Source: Advenella sp. S44 (GTDB taxonomy: Bacteria; Pseudomonadota; Gammaproteobacteria; Burkholderiales; Burkholderiaceae_B). Taken from it: a stretch of DNA of 64,000 nt. This document shows, piece by piece, positions 2,984 through 45,197 of the stretch. A program made the translations under genes and the position numbers. Where the stretch lies: NCBI RefSeq assembly GCF_002810445.1, contig NZ_NEXS01000003.1, positions 62,001 to 126,000 of the forward strand. The letters are read 5' to 3'. Positions within the stretch are counted from its first letter, which is position 1. Every line of letters begins with the position of its first letter. Below the pieces are notes generated by a model. That model was not told the DNA's origin. It searched no databases and worked only from the letters and a program-made list of their open reading frames with translations.

Positions 2984-3976
2984 ATGAAAGTGCTCAAGAC
3001 GAGTTTGACTCACGCGCTGTTGGCGTTACTGGCGCTATATATGATTTCTATAGCGCCAGCTCGTGCCGCCGATATCGTTCTCAAGGCCAGTCATAATGCT
3101 AACCAGGATGAACCGTACCACTCCGGGATGGAACGCATGGGGGAACTCCTGAAGCAGAAGACAGGAGACAAGGCCGAAATTCAGGTATTTGCGAATGCAC
3201 AACTGGGCGATGAAATGGAAAGTGTCCAGGGAACCCAGTTGGGTATTGTCGATATCGCCGTTACTGCCAATGAAGTGATGGCCAATTTTGCCCCTGATAT
3301 GAGCGTGTTCGGCCTGCCCTACCTGTTTAAAGATGCGGAGCATATGGATCGCGCCGTTGGTTCCAAACAGGTACATGACCAAGTCGACCAGATCCTGACC
3401 GCCAAAGGATATCGATTGCTGGGCATTTTCTTTGCAGGCACCCGTCACATTATGTCAAAACGGCCAATAGGATCGATCAACGATATAAAAGGCATGAAGA
3501 TCCGTACTTTGAATAATCCGATCCATATCGAAGCATTCAAAAGCTTTGGCGCTAACCCCACTCCCATGCCGTATACCGAGCTTTATGGGGCTTTGGAAAC
3601 GGGTGTGGTCGATGGCGCGGAGGCAGCCAATACCAATTATCACTCCCGTAAATTTTACGAAGTCGCGCCAAACTGGGCAATGACGGGCTGGATAGAAATG
3701 GTTTCGCCTGTTGTCATTGGTGCGGCGAAGTTCGATTCATTACCCAAAGATATTCAAACTGCATTACTTGAAGCAGGCGCAGAGGCGTCGAAAATGGAAC
3801 GCAAAGTGTATCGCGATAGCGACCAACAGCGCCTGGCGCAATTGAAACAACTGAAAGTCAATATTACTCACCCGGATATTGAGGCTTTCCGTTCTGCCTC
3901 GCAAAAGATCTACGAGAGCTATGTCAAGACGGACGGGCAAAAACAATTACTACAGACTATCCGAACTATGGACTAA
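2984..3976 (+). CDS. TRAP transporter substrate-binding protein (DctP family)
   Basis: 330-residue periplasmic receptor. The ATG at 2984 has AGGAGAG six bases upstream; a TTG two codons earlier is less likely. A Sec signal (LLALLALYMISIAPARA) is followed by the mature start ADIVLKASHNANQDEPYH. Family marks are GTQLGIVDIAVTA, LPYLFKDAEHMD, the ligand-carboxylate arginine in GMKIRTLNNPIH and the TELYGALETGVVDGAE block. It is followed by the small and large permease genes, so it forms a complete TRAP system for an organic acid. The ligand is not known; the neighbouring lyase and AllA-like enzyme suggest a keto or hydroxy acid, possibly a ureido acid. Confidence 0.9.
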   Translation: MKVLKTSLTHALLALLALYMISIAPARAADIVLKASHNANQDEPYHSGMERMGELLKQKTGDKAEIQVFANAQLGDEMESVQGTQLGIVDIAVTANEVMANFAPDMSVFGLPYLFKDAEHMDRAVGSKQVHDQVDQILTAKGYRLLGIFFAGTRHIMSKRPIGSINDIKGMKIRTLNNPIHIEAFKSFGANPTPMPYTELYGALETGVVDGAEAANTNYHSRKFYEVAPNWAMTGWIEMVSPVVIGAAKFDSLPKDIQTALLEAGAEASKMERKVYRDSDQQRLAQLKQLKVNITHPDIEAFRSASQKIYESYVKTDGQKQLLQTIRTMD

Positions 3977-39786: not shown

Positions 39787-42561
39787 TCAGTGCTTGAGAT
39801 GCTCGTTTTCCGGCGTGCCGGTGCCTGAGGTGTCTGTCTCCGGTTCGCCAGTATTTGAAGTGTCAGTTCCGGGCATGGCATCGCTTGCGGTGTCGGTTCC
39901 CGGCATATTGGTGGCTGAAGTGCCCGTCCCTGCGGTGCGAAGATCTGGCTGCACCGTTCCTGACACAGGCATCGACTCCTCGCGTTGCGCTTCTGACCGG
40001 GCAGATATGCCGCCGGGTGCGGCGGCTGTTTCTGATTCGTTCTTATGATCGGTTTTGCTTGCGGTTTTTTCCGCGTATTGTTCCCATACTTCCAGCGCCC
40101 GCAAGCGCTGTTTGACCACCAGGTCGATTTTCTCTTTGATATCGGGAAATTTTTTCATCAGCGCATGAAAATCCCTGGCTTGCAGAAACAGCAGTTTTGA
40201 GTAACCCATGGAGCGCACGCTTTGCGTGAGGGTCTTGTCGGTCAGCATGCTCAGTTCTCCGAGCATTTGCCCCGAGCCCAGCTCTACGCGAGACGAATCG
40301 GGCAGGGTGATCGTCACGGCGCCCGACGCCACAAAAAACATGACTTTATGCCCATGTCTGTCGGTCTGCGGCACGGTTTGGTTGGGCAACATCAGGCGTG
40401 GCCTGAGCAGCTTGCTCAGAGGGGTCAGCGCGGTGTCGTCCATTTCTTCGAATAAGGGCACGCGCTTGACCAGTTCCTTGGCGCTAAGCGATACATCCAG
40501 GCTGGGATGGCGAAACAGGGGCTCCCAGCGCATATTGACCTGGGAGATCAGATTGTTATACACCTCTTTGGTAACCAGCGACTGTTCCAGCATTTCGTTA
40601 TAGCGCGTCACTTCCAGCGAACGGGCAATACGCGCCAGGTAGTCTTCCTGTGTCCAATGCGCATAAACCGGATAGGTCAGGTTCAGGGCGCTGAGCGCGT
40701 TATCGATGGCGTGCAGCCGCGCGACCAGGATCCGTTCTGCCTTGCCGGCGATCTGCTGCCCCAGCAATGGCGTCAGGTCGTCCTTGCAGAAGCGGATCAA
40801 CTGGCTGACTACCGAGTGCTTGCTGATCAGTTTGATAATGCGCTGGGACAGTTCATGAGCCAGCCATGGGCTGAAATTGAAATTGGTCTGCAAGCGCAGT
40901 GCAATTTTGAAGGCGTTGGTATAACGAATATCGTGACGCAACGCTCGGGTGTAGGCCCTGGCGCCGCCAGCGCGCGCGGCATCGCCCAGGTTTTCTGCAT
41001 TGGATAAGAGTGTCTGTGCCGCCTGCCATGGGATCAGCTGCTTCTTGAGCGAATCAAAAAACAGCTCTTCTTCTCGGTTGGAGATAATGGCTAGCGCAAC
41101 CGACAACCGCTCGCCCTTGTTCAGGTGATCGGTTTCGTCCTTTTGAATATCGGCCATCCCCTTGGCGAACACCGCATCCACCTGCTTCTTGGCACTGGTT
41201 TCCACTTTCAGCAGGCCGGCCAGTTCATCGGTCTGTTCCTTGACGTCATCCAGGGCGATGACCAGTGCCTGATTGCGCAGTCCCTGTTCGACCGGACTCA
41301 GCTGATCCAATCCCAGTCTGGAGATGAGCGGCCGCAAGGTCAGACCGTTGATCAGCAATGTTGCCAGCACATAGCAGGTGGTCGCCGCTGCGACAAAATG
41401 GCGCACATCTGCGGCAATTGCGGTCTGTTCGGTGACTGCCAGCGCCAGTGCCAGCGAAATGGCGCCGCGCAAGCCTCCCCAGCACATGACGGCACGAAAA
41501 GGACGACTTACGTGGGTGGACATATTCAGCAGTGTCAGTAGCGGGATCACGCCGAACACCACGGCGGCACGTGCGGCCAGCGTGGTGATAAACAGGAGGA
41601 CGACCAGCAATGCTTCCTTCAGGCTCATATCCACGACCAATCGAGGAATAAGCATGGCAGCCAGAATGAAAATCAAGGAATTGGCCCAGAAGCCGAATTG
41701 CTCCCAGGCATGCCCAAGTTGCTCAAAGGTGGACGGCGACATTCTTGTGCGTCCGGCCGAACCCACGACCAGCCCCGCAACCACGGTGGCAACGACCCCG
41801 GAAACGTGGAAATAGTGTTCGGAAATGAAAAAGGTCAGATAGGCTGTGCAGATTGTCAGGCTGATTTCGGCGGTCGGCCAGCCGCGCATGTAATGAAAAA
41901 GCCGGCACGTGATATGACCGAATACGAAACCGATCAGGCCGCCAATCAGGAAGCTGTACAGGAAGTGGCCGGCAATGCTTTCAATACTGAGTTCCGCCTG
42001 ACGCGTTATGACAGATATAAAAACGGTGTACAGGGCAATGGCCGCCGCGTCATTGAGCAGGGATTCGCCTTCCACGAGCGTCGTCAGGCGTTTTGGGGCA
42101 CCCACCTCTCGGAAAATACCTACTACGGCCACCGGGTCGGTCGTGGCAACAATCGCTCCAAGCAGCAGACAGATCGCCAGGCTGTGGCCGGAGAACTCGG
42201 CCATGATCAGGCCCACGCTGACAGTGCAAACCAGCACGGCCACGATCGCCATGGTCAATATTGGACTGATGTCGACCATAATGCGGCGCACATTCATGGC
42301 CATGGAGGTTTCGAACAACAGGATCGGCAGGAAAACAATCAGAAATGTTTGCGAGGAGATGGAAAATCCGTGCAGGGCGTGCAGGAAGTCACCAATAAAA
42401 GGCAGGTGAACGCCATTGGCCTGGACTACCAGCCCCAACGCAGCGCCCAAAATCGCAAGTGTGACGGTATGAGGCAGACCCAGCCGACTTGCCAGAGATG
42501 GCATAAAGCAGGCAATTGTCAATAATCCGGCCAGTGCAAATACGAAGTATTGGATTTCCAT
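39787..42561 (-). CDS. CPA1 Na+/H+ antiporter with cytoplasmic helical and cyclic-nucleotide-binding domains
   Basis: 924 residues. Residues about 1-410 are a 12-helix NhaP/NHE-type antiporter: GAIVATTDPVAVVGIFREVG, LVEGESLLNDAAAIALY (conserved ND pair), CWGGLRGAISLALALAV. A helical region follows (about 410-700), then a cNMP-binding-like domain: MFFVASGAVTITLPDSSRVE, GSGQMLGELSMLTDKT, ending near 830. The last 90 residues are an acidic Thr/Gly/Pro-rich tail with repeated GTDT units. Similar large plant-SOS1-like antiporters occur in many proteobacteria. Regulation by a nucleotide is inferred from the domain only. Convergent with sco. Confidence 0.88.
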   Translation of the reverse strand: MEIQYFVFALAGLLTIACFMPSLASRLGLPHTVTLAILGAALGLVVQANGVHLPFIGDFLHALHGFSISSQTFLIVFLPILLFETSMAMNVRRIMVDISPILTMAIVAVLVCTVSVGLIMAEFSGHSLAICLLLGAIVATTDPVAVVGIFREVGAPKRLTTLVEGESLLNDAAAIALYTVFISVITRQAELSIESIAGHFLYSFLIGGLIGFVFGHITCRLFHYMRGWPTAEISLTICTAYLTFFISEHYFHVSGVVATVVAGLVVGSAGRTRMSPSTFEQLGHAWEQFGFWANSLIFILAAMLIPRLVVDMSLKEALLVVLLFITTLAARAAVVFGVIPLLTLLNMSTHVSRPFRAVMCWGGLRGAISLALALAVTEQTAIAADVRHFVAAATTCYVLATLLINGLTLRPLISRLGLDQLSPVEQGLRNQALVIALDDVKEQTDELAGLLKVETSAKKQVDAVFAKGMADIQKDETDHLNKGERLSVALAIISNREEELFFDSLKKQLIPWQAAQTLLSNAENLGDAARAGGARAYTRALRHDIRYTNAFKIALRLQTNFNFSPWLAHELSQRIIKLISKHSVVSQLIRFCKDDLTPLLGQQIAGKAERILVARLHAIDNALSALNLTYPVYAHWTQEDYLARIARSLEVTRYNEMLEQSLVTKEVYNNLISQVNMRWEPLFRHPSLDVSLSAKELVKRVPLFEEMDDTALTPLSKLLRPRLMLPNQTVPQTDRHGHKVMFFVASGAVTITLPDSSRVELGSGQMLGELSMLTDKTLTQSVRSMGYSKLLFLQARDFHALMKKFPDIKEKIDLVVKQRLRALEVWEQYAEKTASKTDHKNESETAAAPGGISARSEAQREESMPVSGTVQPDLRTAGTGTSATNMPGTDTASDAMPGTDTSNTGEPETDTSGTGTPENEHLKH

Positions 42562-42641
42562 AAGAGAACAATATTCTGATACTGCGGAAACCCACTATAC
42601 CCGGATAATTTTTTGTGCAGACAGATATTTTTGGTGCGGAC

Positions 42642-42758
42642 AAAAAAAAGGGGCTTCAAAAGAAGCGCCCTGAACATCCGTTTCAAAGGGGAGGGGAAAG
42701 AGGAGAAGCAGAAACGGACGGATCCGGCCAAGTGTCAAGGACACGGATGAGCGAATCA
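42642..42758 (-). ncRNA. Candidate trans-acting small RNA, about 117 nt, with CU-rich loop
   Basis: Read on the minus strand between rpoH and the antiporter gene. Three stems follow one another: GTGTC-CTT-GACAC (42744-42732); TCCGTTTC...GAAACGGA (42718-42677), a perfect 8-bp stem closing a 26-base pyrimidine loop with CUCCUC and CCCCUCCCC runs; and GGGCGCTTC-TTTT-GAAGCCCC followed by eight T (42670-42642), an intrinsic terminator. A sigma-E-like promoter sits at the right distance upstream. No protein frame fits. CU-rich loops can pair with Shine-Dalgarno sequences, as known for some stress sRNAs such as the CcsR family. Inferred from structure only. Confidence 0.6.
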
Positions 42759-42764
42759 TGGTGA

Positions 42765-42792
42765 TTAGTCAGGGCCGGCCCTGCGAAGTTCC
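42765..42792 (-). promoter_or_regulatory. Sigma-E-type promoter for the small RNA
   Basis: Minus strand: GGAACTT (42792-42786), 15-base spacer, GACTAA (42770-42765). The E. coli RpoE consensus is GGAACTT-N15-GTCTAA, so there is one mismatch. The spacer holds the 14-bp palindrome CAGGGCCGGCCCTG (42770-42783), which could be an operator. Transcription would start near 42758. Confidence 0.55.
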
Positions 42793-42855
42793 GAAAGTTC
42801 TATCCGGAATATTTCAGCCGGTTACGCTTAGAGCATGGGCTTCGGACTAAGGTGG

Positions 42856-42894
42856 GGAGTGCGGAGTGCGGAGTGAGGAGTGAGGAGTGAGGAG
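42856..42894. repeat. 7-bp tandem repeat (GGAGTGM)
   Basis: Five full units and a partial one: GGAGTGC twice, GGAGTGA three times, then GGAGCGT. A non-multiple-of-promoter-spacing simple repeat upstream of the small RNA promoter and downstream of rpoH; likely variable in copy number. Confidence 0.85.
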
Positions 42895-42971
42895 CGTGCT
42901 CGAGCCGGGTCGCACGAATCATTGCGAGCACGATAACGCAGCACCCCGCGAGCGTCGGCGCCATAGAAAAA

Positions 42972-42990
42972 GGGCATCACAAGGACGCCC
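42972..42990 (-). terminator. rpoH terminator
   Basis: Minus strand GGGCGTC-CTTGT-GATGCCC (one G-U pair) followed by TTTTTC, about 22 bp after the rpoH stop. Confidence 0.75.
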
Positions 42991-43012
42991 TTTTGTGGCT
43001 GAAGCAATTGCG

Positions 43013-43891
43013 TTATGCGGCGAATGCGCCACGCATTTTCTTGAGCGCAGCCGATTCGATCTGGCGGATACGCTCTGCCGAGACACCAAACTCGTCGGCC
43101 AGTTCATGCAGCGTAGAGCCGCCACCTTCGTCCTGAAGCCAACGCGCCTCGATGATACGACGGGAGCGGGGATCCAGGACCGCCAGCGCGTTGGATACGC
43201 CGGCGCCTTGCATATCGTCATGGGCGCGGCGATCCAGCACCATGCCGGGCTCCTGCTCTCCATCATCGGAAAGGTAGGAGATGGGCGCGAAGTCATCGCT
43301 ATCGTCGTCCTGGGACTCCAGCGACATGTCGCGCCCGGTCAGGCGAACTTCCATTTCGCTGACGTCTTCGGGACGCACATTAAGTTTGGAGGCAATGCCT
43401 TCAATGTGCTCGGGCGTAAGCGTCTGACCATCGGCACGCATGCTGCGCAAGTTGAAGAACAGTTTGCGCTGCGCCTTGGTCGTCGCGATTTTTACCAGCC
43501 GCCAGTTGCGGATGATGTATTCATGAATTTCGGCTTTGATCCAGTGCACGGCAAAGGAGACGAGCCGCACACCGCGGGTCACGTCGAAACGTTTGACCGC
43601 TTTCATGAGGCCGATATTGCCTTCCTGGATAAGATCAGCGTGAGGCAACCCATAACCCAGGTACTGGCGGGAAATGGAGACAACTAGCCGCAAATGAGAC
43701 ATGATCAGTTCGCGCGCGGCGTTCAGATCGCCTTTTTCCTGAAGCGTTTCTCCCAATTCCCTTTCGCGCTCTGGCGTAAGCATGGGAATGCGGTTCACTG
43801 CACTGATATAAGATTCGATCGTGCCTAGCGCCCCGGGATTGGAAATCGCTGAGGCAATCGAGTTTTGCAGCGTAAGCGCTTGATTTGACAT
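43013..43891 (-). CDS. rpoH: RNA polymerase heat-shock sigma factor (sigma-32)
   Basis: 292 residues from the ATG at 43891 (MSNQALTLQNS), with AGGAGA 11 bases upstream; an earlier in-frame start at 43924 would lie beyond this ribosome site. Region 2: HLRLVVSISRQYLGYGLPHA, DLIQEGNIGLMKAVKRFDVT, RGVRLVSFAVHWIKAEIHEY. The RpoH box is present: QRKLFFNLRSMRADGQ near residue 135, which separates it from RpoD. Region 4 HTH: STLHELADEFGVSAERIRQI. It directs transcription of chaperone and protease genes. A perfect CIRCE element 46 bp upstream suggests HrcA control. Confidence 0.96.
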   Translation of the reverse strand: MSNQALTLQNSIASAISNPGALGTIESYISAVNRIPMLTPERERELGETLQEKGDLNAARELIMSHLRLVVSISRQYLGYGLPHADLIQEGNIGLMKAVKRFDVTRGVRLVSFAVHWIKAEIHEYIIRNWRLVKIATTKAQRKLFFNLRSMRADGQTLTPEHIEGIASKLNVRPEDVSEMEVRLTGRDMSLESQDDDSDDFAPISYLSDDGEQEPGMVLDRRAHDDMQGAGVSNALAVLDPRSRRIIEARWLQDEGGGSTLHELADEFGVSAERIRQIESAALKKMRGAFAA

Positions 43892-43936
43892 GATTTTGTA
43901 TATCTCCTGACAAGGAATATTCAAAGTACTTATATA

Positions 43937-43963
43937 TTAGCACTCTCTGTCACCGAGTGCTAA
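43937..43963. promoter_or_regulatory. CIRCE element (HrcA operator) upstream of rpoH
   Basis: TTAGCACTC, nine-base spacer, GAGTGCTAA: both arms match the CIRCE consensus without a mismatch, and the spacer length is exact. It lies 46 bp upstream of the rpoH ATG. HrcA bound here would repress rpoH transcription until heat-induced misfolding removes it. Confidence 0.95.
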
Positions 43964-44345
43964 TATTGACTGCGCATAAGCTAAAAAGTTCCGTTTCGAA
44001 CGGTTATGCAGCCGCACCGGCTACACCGGGATAAAACAGCCAGCATTCGGTTGCTCACATGCAACGCAGAGCTATCGGGTTCCGCGATTGCCGGCAACGC
44101 GACTGCTGTGAGCCAGTGCCAGCAAGCAACTGGCCGTCATAAAACCACAAATGACCGCGTTGCGTTCATCCAGGCTAACGCTCTTTATTATAAGACCGCC
44201 GCTATGCCTGGGTAGTTCCTTCAGTTGTCTTGTTCAGATTATGACAGCGGCGTGCGTAATGGAGCACATGGGACATCATGGCTGCCGGTATTAATAGATA
44301 TCAGCGGCCCGGGAACCCGCTGGTCCCCGGTGTGCCTCTTGCTTG
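43964..44345. other. 382-bp gap between rpoH and fghA
   Basis: Contains the upstream part of the rpoH promoter region. No gene, RNA or clear repeat was seen in the remainder. Confidence 0.5.
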
Positions 44346-45197
44346 TTATTTCAGGCGTTCGGCGTGGAAACGCAGATGATCTTCCATGAACGTGGAAATG
44401 AAATAATAGCCATGGTCATAATGCTCATGGCGGCGCAGTGTCAATGGTTGTTCTGCCTTGGCGCAGGCCGCCTCAAGCAACTCGGGCAGCAGTTGGCCGT
44501 CGGCCAGGAATTTGTCGGCCAGCCCCTGGTCAACCAGGATGCCGTCAGGAAAAGGCGTTTTGGCTTTTTCTATCAGTTTGCTGGCGTCGTAGTTTTCCCA
44601 AGTTGTGCGATCCTGTCCGAGATAGCCGCTGAACGCCTTTTCGCCCCATGGGCACTCCATTGGAGCGCTAATCGGTGCAAAAGCCGATACGGAACGGAAC
44701 AGTTCGGGATTCTTCAGTGCAATGGTCAGTGCGCCGTGCCCGCCCATGGAATGGCCGAAAATGCCGGTGCGGCTTTGATCGCCGCCAAATTCGGGGATGA
44801 ACTGGAGTACTTCACGGGTGATATAACTGTACATTTTGTAATTGTCTTTCCAGCCTGGCTCGGTCGCATCTAGGTAGAATCCGGCACCGGTGCCAAAATC
44901 CCAGCCTTCGTCTTCGCCCGGCACATTCGCGCCGCGCGGGCTGGTGTCTGGTGCAATCAGGAGCAAGCCCAACTCGGCTGCCATGCGTTGCGCACCGGCC
45001 TTGGTCATGAATGTTTCTTCGGTGCAGGTCAGGCCGGCCAGGTAAATGAGCGCAGGAACCGGGCCGCGAGCTGCTTGCGGCGGTATGAAGACAGAAAACT
45101 GCATTGGCAGGCCAATTTCGCTAGACGTATGTCGATAAAAACGCTGCGAGCCATTAAAGCAGTAATGTTCACTTAAAAGTTCGAATTTTTCACTCAT
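44346..45197 (-). CDS. fghA: S-formylglutathione hydrolase
   Basis: 283 residues from the ATG at 45197 with GGAGCAAGG upstream; a TTG two codons earlier is rejected. Esterase D-type alpha/beta hydrolase: oxyanion region YLAGLTCTEETFMTKAGAQR, nucleophile elbow GIFGHSMGGHGALTIALKNP with Ser near 150, Asp in DGILVDQGLADKFL near 225 and His in RHEHYDHGYYFISTF near 258. It hydrolyses S-formylglutathione to formate and glutathione, the second step of glutathione-dependent formaldehyde detoxification. The partner dehydrogenase gene is not nearby. Confidence 0.96.
   Translation of the reverse strand: MSEKFELLSEHYCFNGSQRFYRHTSSEIGLPMQFSVFIPPQAARGPVPALIYLAGLTCTEETFMTKAGAQRMAAELGLLLIAPDTSPRGANVPGEDEGWDFGTGAGFYLDATEPGWKDNYKMYSYITREVLQFIPEFGGDQSRTGIFGHSMGGHGALTIALKNPELFRSVSAFAPISAPMECPWGEKAFSGYLGQDRTTWENYDASKLIEKAKTPFPDGILVDQGLADKFLADGQLLPELLEAACAKAEQPLTLRRHEHYDHGYYFISTFMEDHLRFHAERLK

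Follow-up and report, generated by a model that had tools for sequence, protein, structure and literature searches.

The stretch of DNA analyzed here, hereafter called the window, comprises 64,000 nucleotides of the genome of Advenella sp. S44 and carries on its minus strand rpoH, coding for the heat-shock sigma factor, followed by the gene of a Na+/H+ exchanger with a cNMP-binding domain, hereafter abbreviated as antiporter. Between the two lies the predicted gene of a small RNA (sRNA), which has a sigma-E-type promoter of its own and ends in an intrinsic terminator (table 1), the antiporter open reading frame (ORF) beginning about 80 bases past the T run of the latter. Two repetitive features were also seen in this region, namely a 7-bp tandem repeat GTGAGGA of about six copies between rpoH and the sRNA (42852-42894), and a palindrome, CAGGGCCGGCCCTG, in the spacer of the sRNA promoter (42770-42783), which is absent from the promoter spacers of five Advenella loci (L003-L007).

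Table 1. Predicted features of the rpoH-antiporter region of Advenella sp. S44, in window positions.
Feature	Position	Strand	Basis
Sigma-E-type promoter of rpoH, GGAACTT-N15-GTCAAT	43965..43992	minus	Sequence; box class of the SigE-transcribed rpoH (fam) promoter of B. bronchiseptica
rpoH, heat-shock sigma factor, upstream of the sRNA	43013..43891	minus	Pfam sigma-70 regions 1.2, 2 and 4; start codon (ATG of MSNQALTL) chosen by eye
Terminator-like hairpin and T run after rpoH	42967..42994	minus	By eye; missing from the list of the terminator scan
-35 box GGAACTT of the sigma-E-type sRNA promoter	42786..42792	minus	Sequence; AACT 1.9-2.0 bits per position (inflated) in 63 non-redundant sites
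-10 box GACTAA of the sRNA promoter, 15 bases past the -35 box	42765..42770	minus	C, A and A 2.0 bits, T 1.5 bits (inflated) in 63 non-redundant sites
Predicted sRNA, about 116 nt	42642..42757	minus	Start inferred 7 bases past the -10 box; terminator; fold z -5.73
5' structured domain, sequence variable	42721..42757	minus	Fold; 9-19 pairs in 57 non-redundant predicted RNAs
Middle stem-loop, 10-bp helix and 26-nt pyrimidine loop	42675..42720	minus	Helix 1 paired in 100% of cells, 6/10 pairs with both-side changes
CU-rich seed loop UGCUUCUCCUCUUUCCCCUCCCCUUU	42685..42710	minus	Near-invariant in 28 aligned loci; predicted unpaired
Intrinsic terminator, hairpin and eight T	42642..42671	minus	Fold, scan; helix 2 with both-side changes in 8/9 pairs
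Na+/H+ exchanger with cNMP-binding domain, next downstream gene	39787..42561	minus	Pfam PF00999, PF00027

The promoter GGAACTT-N15-GACTAA that the first-pass annotation had described on the minus strand is present in the sequence at 42792-42765, as are the three stems and the terminator with eight T ending at 42642. The segment 42764-42642 folds into three hairpins with a predicted energy of -38.9 kcal/mol; 200 dinucleotide-shuffled versions average -21.6 (sd 3.0), and none of them is as low (z = -5.73). Two details had to be amended: the middle stem retains its 26-nt pyrimidine loop, with a single purine, but the helix proposed to have 8 bp consists of 10 pairs (eight Watson-Crick, one G-U and one C-G), and the start of the RNA is moved from near 42758 to near 42757, its end at 42642 being kept. 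The terminator is the sole terminator-like site listed in a scan of 42540-43060, a result which alone proves nothing, since shuffled sequences yield 0.6 such sites on average. When both strands of the whole window are searched with spacers of 14-16 bases, the sRNA promoter is the only match of 13/13 to the two boxes, the three runner-up sites scoring 11/13.

Conservation of the RNA and kinship with CT_521

A blastn search with a 171-base region found matches in 28 of 61 genomes (that of Advenella sp. S44 included), and all 28 fall within the 37 genomes of the same family. In the alignment of these 28 loci (27 distinct), 14 of the 19 pairs forming the stem-loop and the terminator show changes on both sides, and 96.1% of the cells are paired, as compared with 84.0% after shuffling and 33-47% when the partners are slid by 1-3 columns. 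Both-side changes amount to 76 cells versus 27.8 in shuffled alignments; none of 500 shuffles reaches the values found for pairing, both-side changes or covariation, a significance that is overstated because the rows of the alignment are related. The slid controls are clear, and so are the base-pair replacements that the loop helix shows (UA to CG, CG to UA and GC to AU); RNAalifold predicts the identical 19 pairs from the alignment; further pair types are not above the shuffles in this 28-locus alignment (232 of 500 as high). Conservation of stems and promoter among relatives, which the first-pass annotation had proposed as a check, was found for both, the pairs being kept through changes on either side.

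We built a covariance model of the stem-loop and terminator, named R1, on the 28 loci, which match it by construction. At E 0.01 this model matches 177 of 268 genomes of the family (that of Advenella, Bordetella, Achromobacter and their kin), in 35 of 43 genera, and leaves 91 of the 268 without a match. When applied to a sample of 300 genomes from the order, R1 matched nine genomes of the family and gave 15 weak matches outside it (best E 4.6e-5); none of the 11 outside loci that were fetched has rpoH in its stretch, and these weak matches are taken as due to chance or to other CU-rich RNAs. The Rfam 15 collection returned nothing at gathering score in the whole 64-kb window and, at E up to 5, just two eukaryotic families in 41000-44500, both far below their cut-offs; R1 supplies a model for an RNA without a match in that collection.

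A search of genome contigs with the loop pattern yielded 98 stretches from Alcaligenaceae and two Burkholderiaceae bins (L147 and L204), many of which are closely related, above all those of Achromobacter. Family membership was looked up for Advenella, Eoetvoesiella, Schauerella, Candidimonas, Castellaniella and Pollutimonas, and the remaining genera we take to be Alcaligenaceae as well. As in the window, the sRNA directly follows rpoH, in the same orientation, in 90 of the 98 stretches, the loop being found 122-1026 bases (median 196) past the end of the rpoH alignment; the other eight comprise six that are too short upstream, one at a contig end (L144) and one, L178, that has no rpoH in the 4.7 kb upstream. 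The latter belongs to Pollutimonas bauzanensis and has the sRNA (4721) and its promoter beside the antiporter. An antiporter homologue lies downstream in 73 of the 98 stretches.

Predicted RNAs of this class, considered as a set of 57 non-redundant members whose starts were set from the promoter (loci without a recognizable one being omitted), have a length of 111-137 nt (median 120), and their loop has a mean unpaired probability of 0.95, the lowest value being 0.91. The 5' domains (50 non-redundant) vary in sequence and fold with a mean z of -2.5, 68% of them lying below -2. The comparison shows a predicted unit whose own promoter is of the RpoE (ECF02) type and whose RNA is made of a structured 5' domain that varies in sequence, a near-invariant loop presented by a covarying stem, and a terminator that covaries as well. 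That the predicted sRNA is real, and ordinary in kind, is well supported by this comparison.

The RNA, which the first-pass annotation did not know, is not new, for a described sRNA occupies the same place in Bordetella pertussis. This RNA, CT_521, has about 120 nt, is encoded between bp3747 and rpoH, depends on Hfq and is cleaved by RNase E (Kumar et al. 2025, PMC12235514). RIL-seq assigned it 22 partners with a common Shine-Dalgarno-like motif, to which its C/T-rich seed is complementary, and it is reportedly uninduced in bacteria within macrophages (PMC12235514). Removal of its -10 region raised the mRNA of plrR and bp0913 but lowered that of tcfA, and left the protein amounts of PtxA and FHA unchanged though their mRNAs seemed raised (PMC12235514), so that its effect is not simply one of repression. 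Both CT_521 and the Advenella sRNA (116 nt as predicted here) are located downstream of rpoH and carry a conserved C/T-rich seed just before the terminator. On the basis of place, size and seed we consider the Advenella sRNA a member of the CT_521 family, the 98 stretches containing no B. pertussis record; the link is made by B. petrii, B. trematum and B. hinzii, whose loci carry the same loop and promoter, as does the B. ansorpii locus. Of these species, B. petrii and B. hinzii were included in the Northern blot of the CT_521 study (PMC12235514).

The sRNA promoter, its proposed control by sigma-E and the alternatives

The 98 stretches contain 99 loop matches, three of which were dropped for having too short an upstream sequence, and the remaining 96 were scored against GGAACTT/GACTAA. 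Scores of at least 10/13 were obtained at 92 of these 96 loci, with a spacer of 15 bases in 91 of the 92, versus 3.0 of 96 for shuffled segments and eight of 96 for the opposite strand. The exceptions are both copies in L142 (score 7), L180 (9) and L195 (8), to which may be added L217, scoring 10 but with a poor -35 box. (The L142 stretch, from Achromobacter pulmonis ANB-1, has two identical copies of the sRNA, at 3514 and 7248, within a repeated segment, both lacking the -35 box.) Among 63 non-redundant sites, the information content stays below 0.4 bits at 12 of the 15 positions of the spacer and at each of the 12 in the upstream flank, while the values of the boxes (table 1) are inflated because the sites were chosen by score. 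It is well supported that a predicted promoter with fixed 15-base spacing has been conserved while its spacer drifted.

A promoter of the same class lies upstream of rpoH. Among the 104 rpoH loci with enough upstream sequence, some of which share genomes, a GGAACTT box with a sigma-E-type -10 scores at least 10/13 at 102 and at least 11 at 87, versus 15.4 and 1.4 in the respective shuffle controls, and the best spacer is of 15 bases at 97. A perfect CIRCE operator, TTAGCACTC-N9-GAGTGCTAA, is also present upstream of rpoH in the window (43937-43963), beside the sigma-E-type promoter, and the exact operator occurs at 95 of the 104 loci. Control of rpoH by HrcA has been described before in betaproteobacteria.

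The genome of Advenella sp. S44 contains one strong, full RpoE-type match (TIGR02939) and one partial match, and presents the pattern GGAACT-N17-19-CTAA at six sites, versus 40 for the reversed pattern. Three of the six, having T or A as the seventh base, precede the sRNA, a DegP/HtrA-family protease and a DsbA-like gene; the protease site lies 240 bases upstream of the ATG, within the preceding ORF, and the DsbA-like protein is above the Pfam cut-off but below that of NCBIfam. The other three sites were judged to be chance occurrences from their ORF context, and the matches to GAAACTTTT...CTAA inside the rpoE coding sequence were discarded. The features by which a member of a sigma-E regulon is recognized, namely a conserved AACTT in the -35 box with a matching -10 at 15-base spacing, are both present at the sRNA. 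From the conservation of its promoter and the same class of boxes at rpoH, the DegP-family and the DsbA-like genes, we infer that the sRNA is controlled by sigma-E. What our comparison adds is a putative promoter of the sigma-E type, kept across a family of bacteria and adjoining rpoH, whose own promoter belongs to this class too. A literature search, with most subscription journals outside its reach, found no paper on sigma-E control of CT_521. The five places of the CT_521 study that name rseA or RpoE do not concern this RNA (the rseA blot being for CT_532), and its authors leave stress control open (PMC12235514); PMC8386462 makes no mention of rpoH, rpoE or S17.

Alternatively, the sRNA may be real but transcribed with a sigma factor other than RpoE, or with sigma-70 and the help of a regulator. 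Its -10 box, of the form (A/C)CTAA, departs from the TC-bearing form of most rpoH promoters displayed, and the sibling RNA S17 (CT_433) is transcribed from a sigma-A promoter (PMC11722255). However, the -35 box and the spacing are as in rpoH promoters, a class that SigE of B. bronchiseptica transcribes, as seen in vitro with its rpoH (fam) promoter, SigE also transcribing the E. coli rpoHP3 promoter (PMC3490749), and the genome contains the strong RpoE-type match mentioned above. The scan of 42540-43060 found no sigma-70-like promoter, a weak argument given that only 0.2 would be expected by chance. We consider transcription by a factor other than RpoE to be improbable.

Like the sigma-70 promoter, three further explanations were each tested and set aside. 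A piece of the 3' end of rpoH mRNA, cut out by RNase E with no primary transcript of its own, would suit the location of the sRNA past rpoH on the same strand and the higher levels of CT_521 in RNase E and RNase III mutants (PMC12235514). Nevertheless, such a piece is very unlikely, for the fixed-spacing promoter is kept while the surrounding DNA drifts, a terminator-like hairpin (recognized by eye) follows rpoH, the P. bauzanensis locus has sRNA and promoter with no rpoH in the 4.7 kb upstream, and the promoter mutant of CT_521 had altered the mRNAs of several partners, as reported above. Even less credit can be given to the reading, anticipated in the first-pass annotation, of a mere leader or attenuator belonging to the antiporter transcript: the proximity of the antiporter ORF and its frequent presence downstream would favor it, but the element persists in loci without an antiporter homologue in the 1.5-kb flank (for example L008-L011, L013, L015 and L018) and hence is not just a leader, a covarying terminator of its own closes it, and CT_521 was seen at the expected size on a Northern blot (PMC12235514). 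Finally, a small protein might be read from an almost leaderless ORF, of 54 aa in the window, for at 66 of 100 loci an ATG falls within a 12-base interval about the predicted start. This is scarcely conceivable, because an ORF of at least 20 codons exists at just 28 of the 100, some running from ATG to TAG at once, and conservation tracks base pairing and loop rather than codons.

Targets, proposed mechanism and known regulatory RNAs

The pairing of the loop with Shine-Dalgarno sequences, put forward in the first-pass annotation, is favored by the RIL-seq data for CT_521 (PMC12235514) and not by our own target search. The complement pattern GAGGAGAAGC-N0-9-ATG was found in 29 of 41 genomes, nine among the matches listed being the opposite strand of the sRNA gene itself, but has no match in the genome of Advenella sp. 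S44. The pattern GGGAGGGGA-N1-9-ATG occurs in 32 of 41 genomes, partly in the form of a repeated GGGAGGGGAGGATG in two Advenella genomes (G004 and G005), where this sequence recurs many times on several contigs and is apparently a repeated element. Its three matches in the Advenella sp. S44 genome open a 20-aa frame, an ORF that resembles an aminotransferase by eye and a 209-aa ORF, and no outer-membrane protein was recognized among the matches of either pattern in this genome. Overall, these searches for loop complements before ATG (30 loci per search, five stretches read) produced no convincing conserved target.

Taken together, the RNA is probably a sigma-E-driven, Hfq-dependent and trans-acting sRNA, the Advenella member of the CT_521 family, which would act mainly via pairing of its loop with Shine-Dalgarno sequences. 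The dependence on Hfq and RNase E and the Shine-Dalgarno-like partners are known for CT_521 alone, and are attributed to the Advenella sRNA by analogy; sigma-E control is proposed here for CT_521 too, beyond what the rseA/RpoE passages of its description contain (PMC12235514). In the mechanism we envisage, envelope stress would free RpoE from RseA, and RpoE would then transcribe both rpoH and the sRNA from their neighboring promoters. Hfq would hold the sRNA at its U tail, as may be extrapolated from CT_521, and the loop, with its GCUUCUCCUC and CCCCUCCC runs, would pair with purine-rich Shine-Dalgarno stretches, mostly blocking translation of the targets. A broader proposal, which we advance only tentatively and regard as somewhat doubtful, is that the RNA constitutes the core sigma-E sRNA of Alcaligenaceae, stress firing two adjacent sigma-E promoters, one for RpoH and thereby for chaperones, the other for an RNA with an invariant anti-Shine-Dalgarno loop, which would serve as a broad brake on the translation initiation of numerous mRNAs together rather than as one specific for porins. 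If this were true, the CT_521 partners in Bordetella, including mRNAs of virulence factors, would come under envelope-stress control. CT_521 and CT_433 have been called central riboregulatory hubs, and our comparison names RpoE as a candidate controller of the former.

Among other known RNAs, S17 (CT_433) and bdhR1 (RF02278, the Betaproteobacteria toxic small RNA) work in a similar way, having a terminator hairpin and a C/U-rich seed that targets ribosome-binding sites, and S17 is also Hfq-dependent (PMC11722255), but their sequence and locus differ from those of the Advenella sRNA. Membership of the latter in RF02278 was rejected, since a search of 41000-44500 that admitted E values up to 5 gave no match to this model. 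A separate sRNA of the S17/bdhR1 type (RF02278), having a different CU-rich seed, is present elsewhere in the genome of Advenella sp. S44 (L074, G000:C12:225985-226049). The CcsR and alpha-r45 'cuckoo' RNAs have CU-rich loops in stress RNAs of alphaproteobacteria, with a different gene order. The likeness to the CcsR type noted in the first-pass annotation is at most functional, no such match having been obtained at E up to 5 with whatever models Rfam may have of these RNAs.

A parallel in proposed role is with MicA and RybB, Hfq-dependent RNAs of enterobacteria which are driven by sigma-E and serve as the repressing arm in the response to envelope stress. The connection of MicA with sigma-E is stated also in the CT_521 study (PMC12235514). 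The Advenella sRNA differs from this pair in having neither an Rfam match nor a recognized outer-membrane protein target among the own-genome matches described above, yet it may similarly act as the repressing arm of the sigma-E response, and would then be the counterpart of MicA and RybB for these betaproteobacteria, tied to the adjacent gene of the heat-shock sigma factor.
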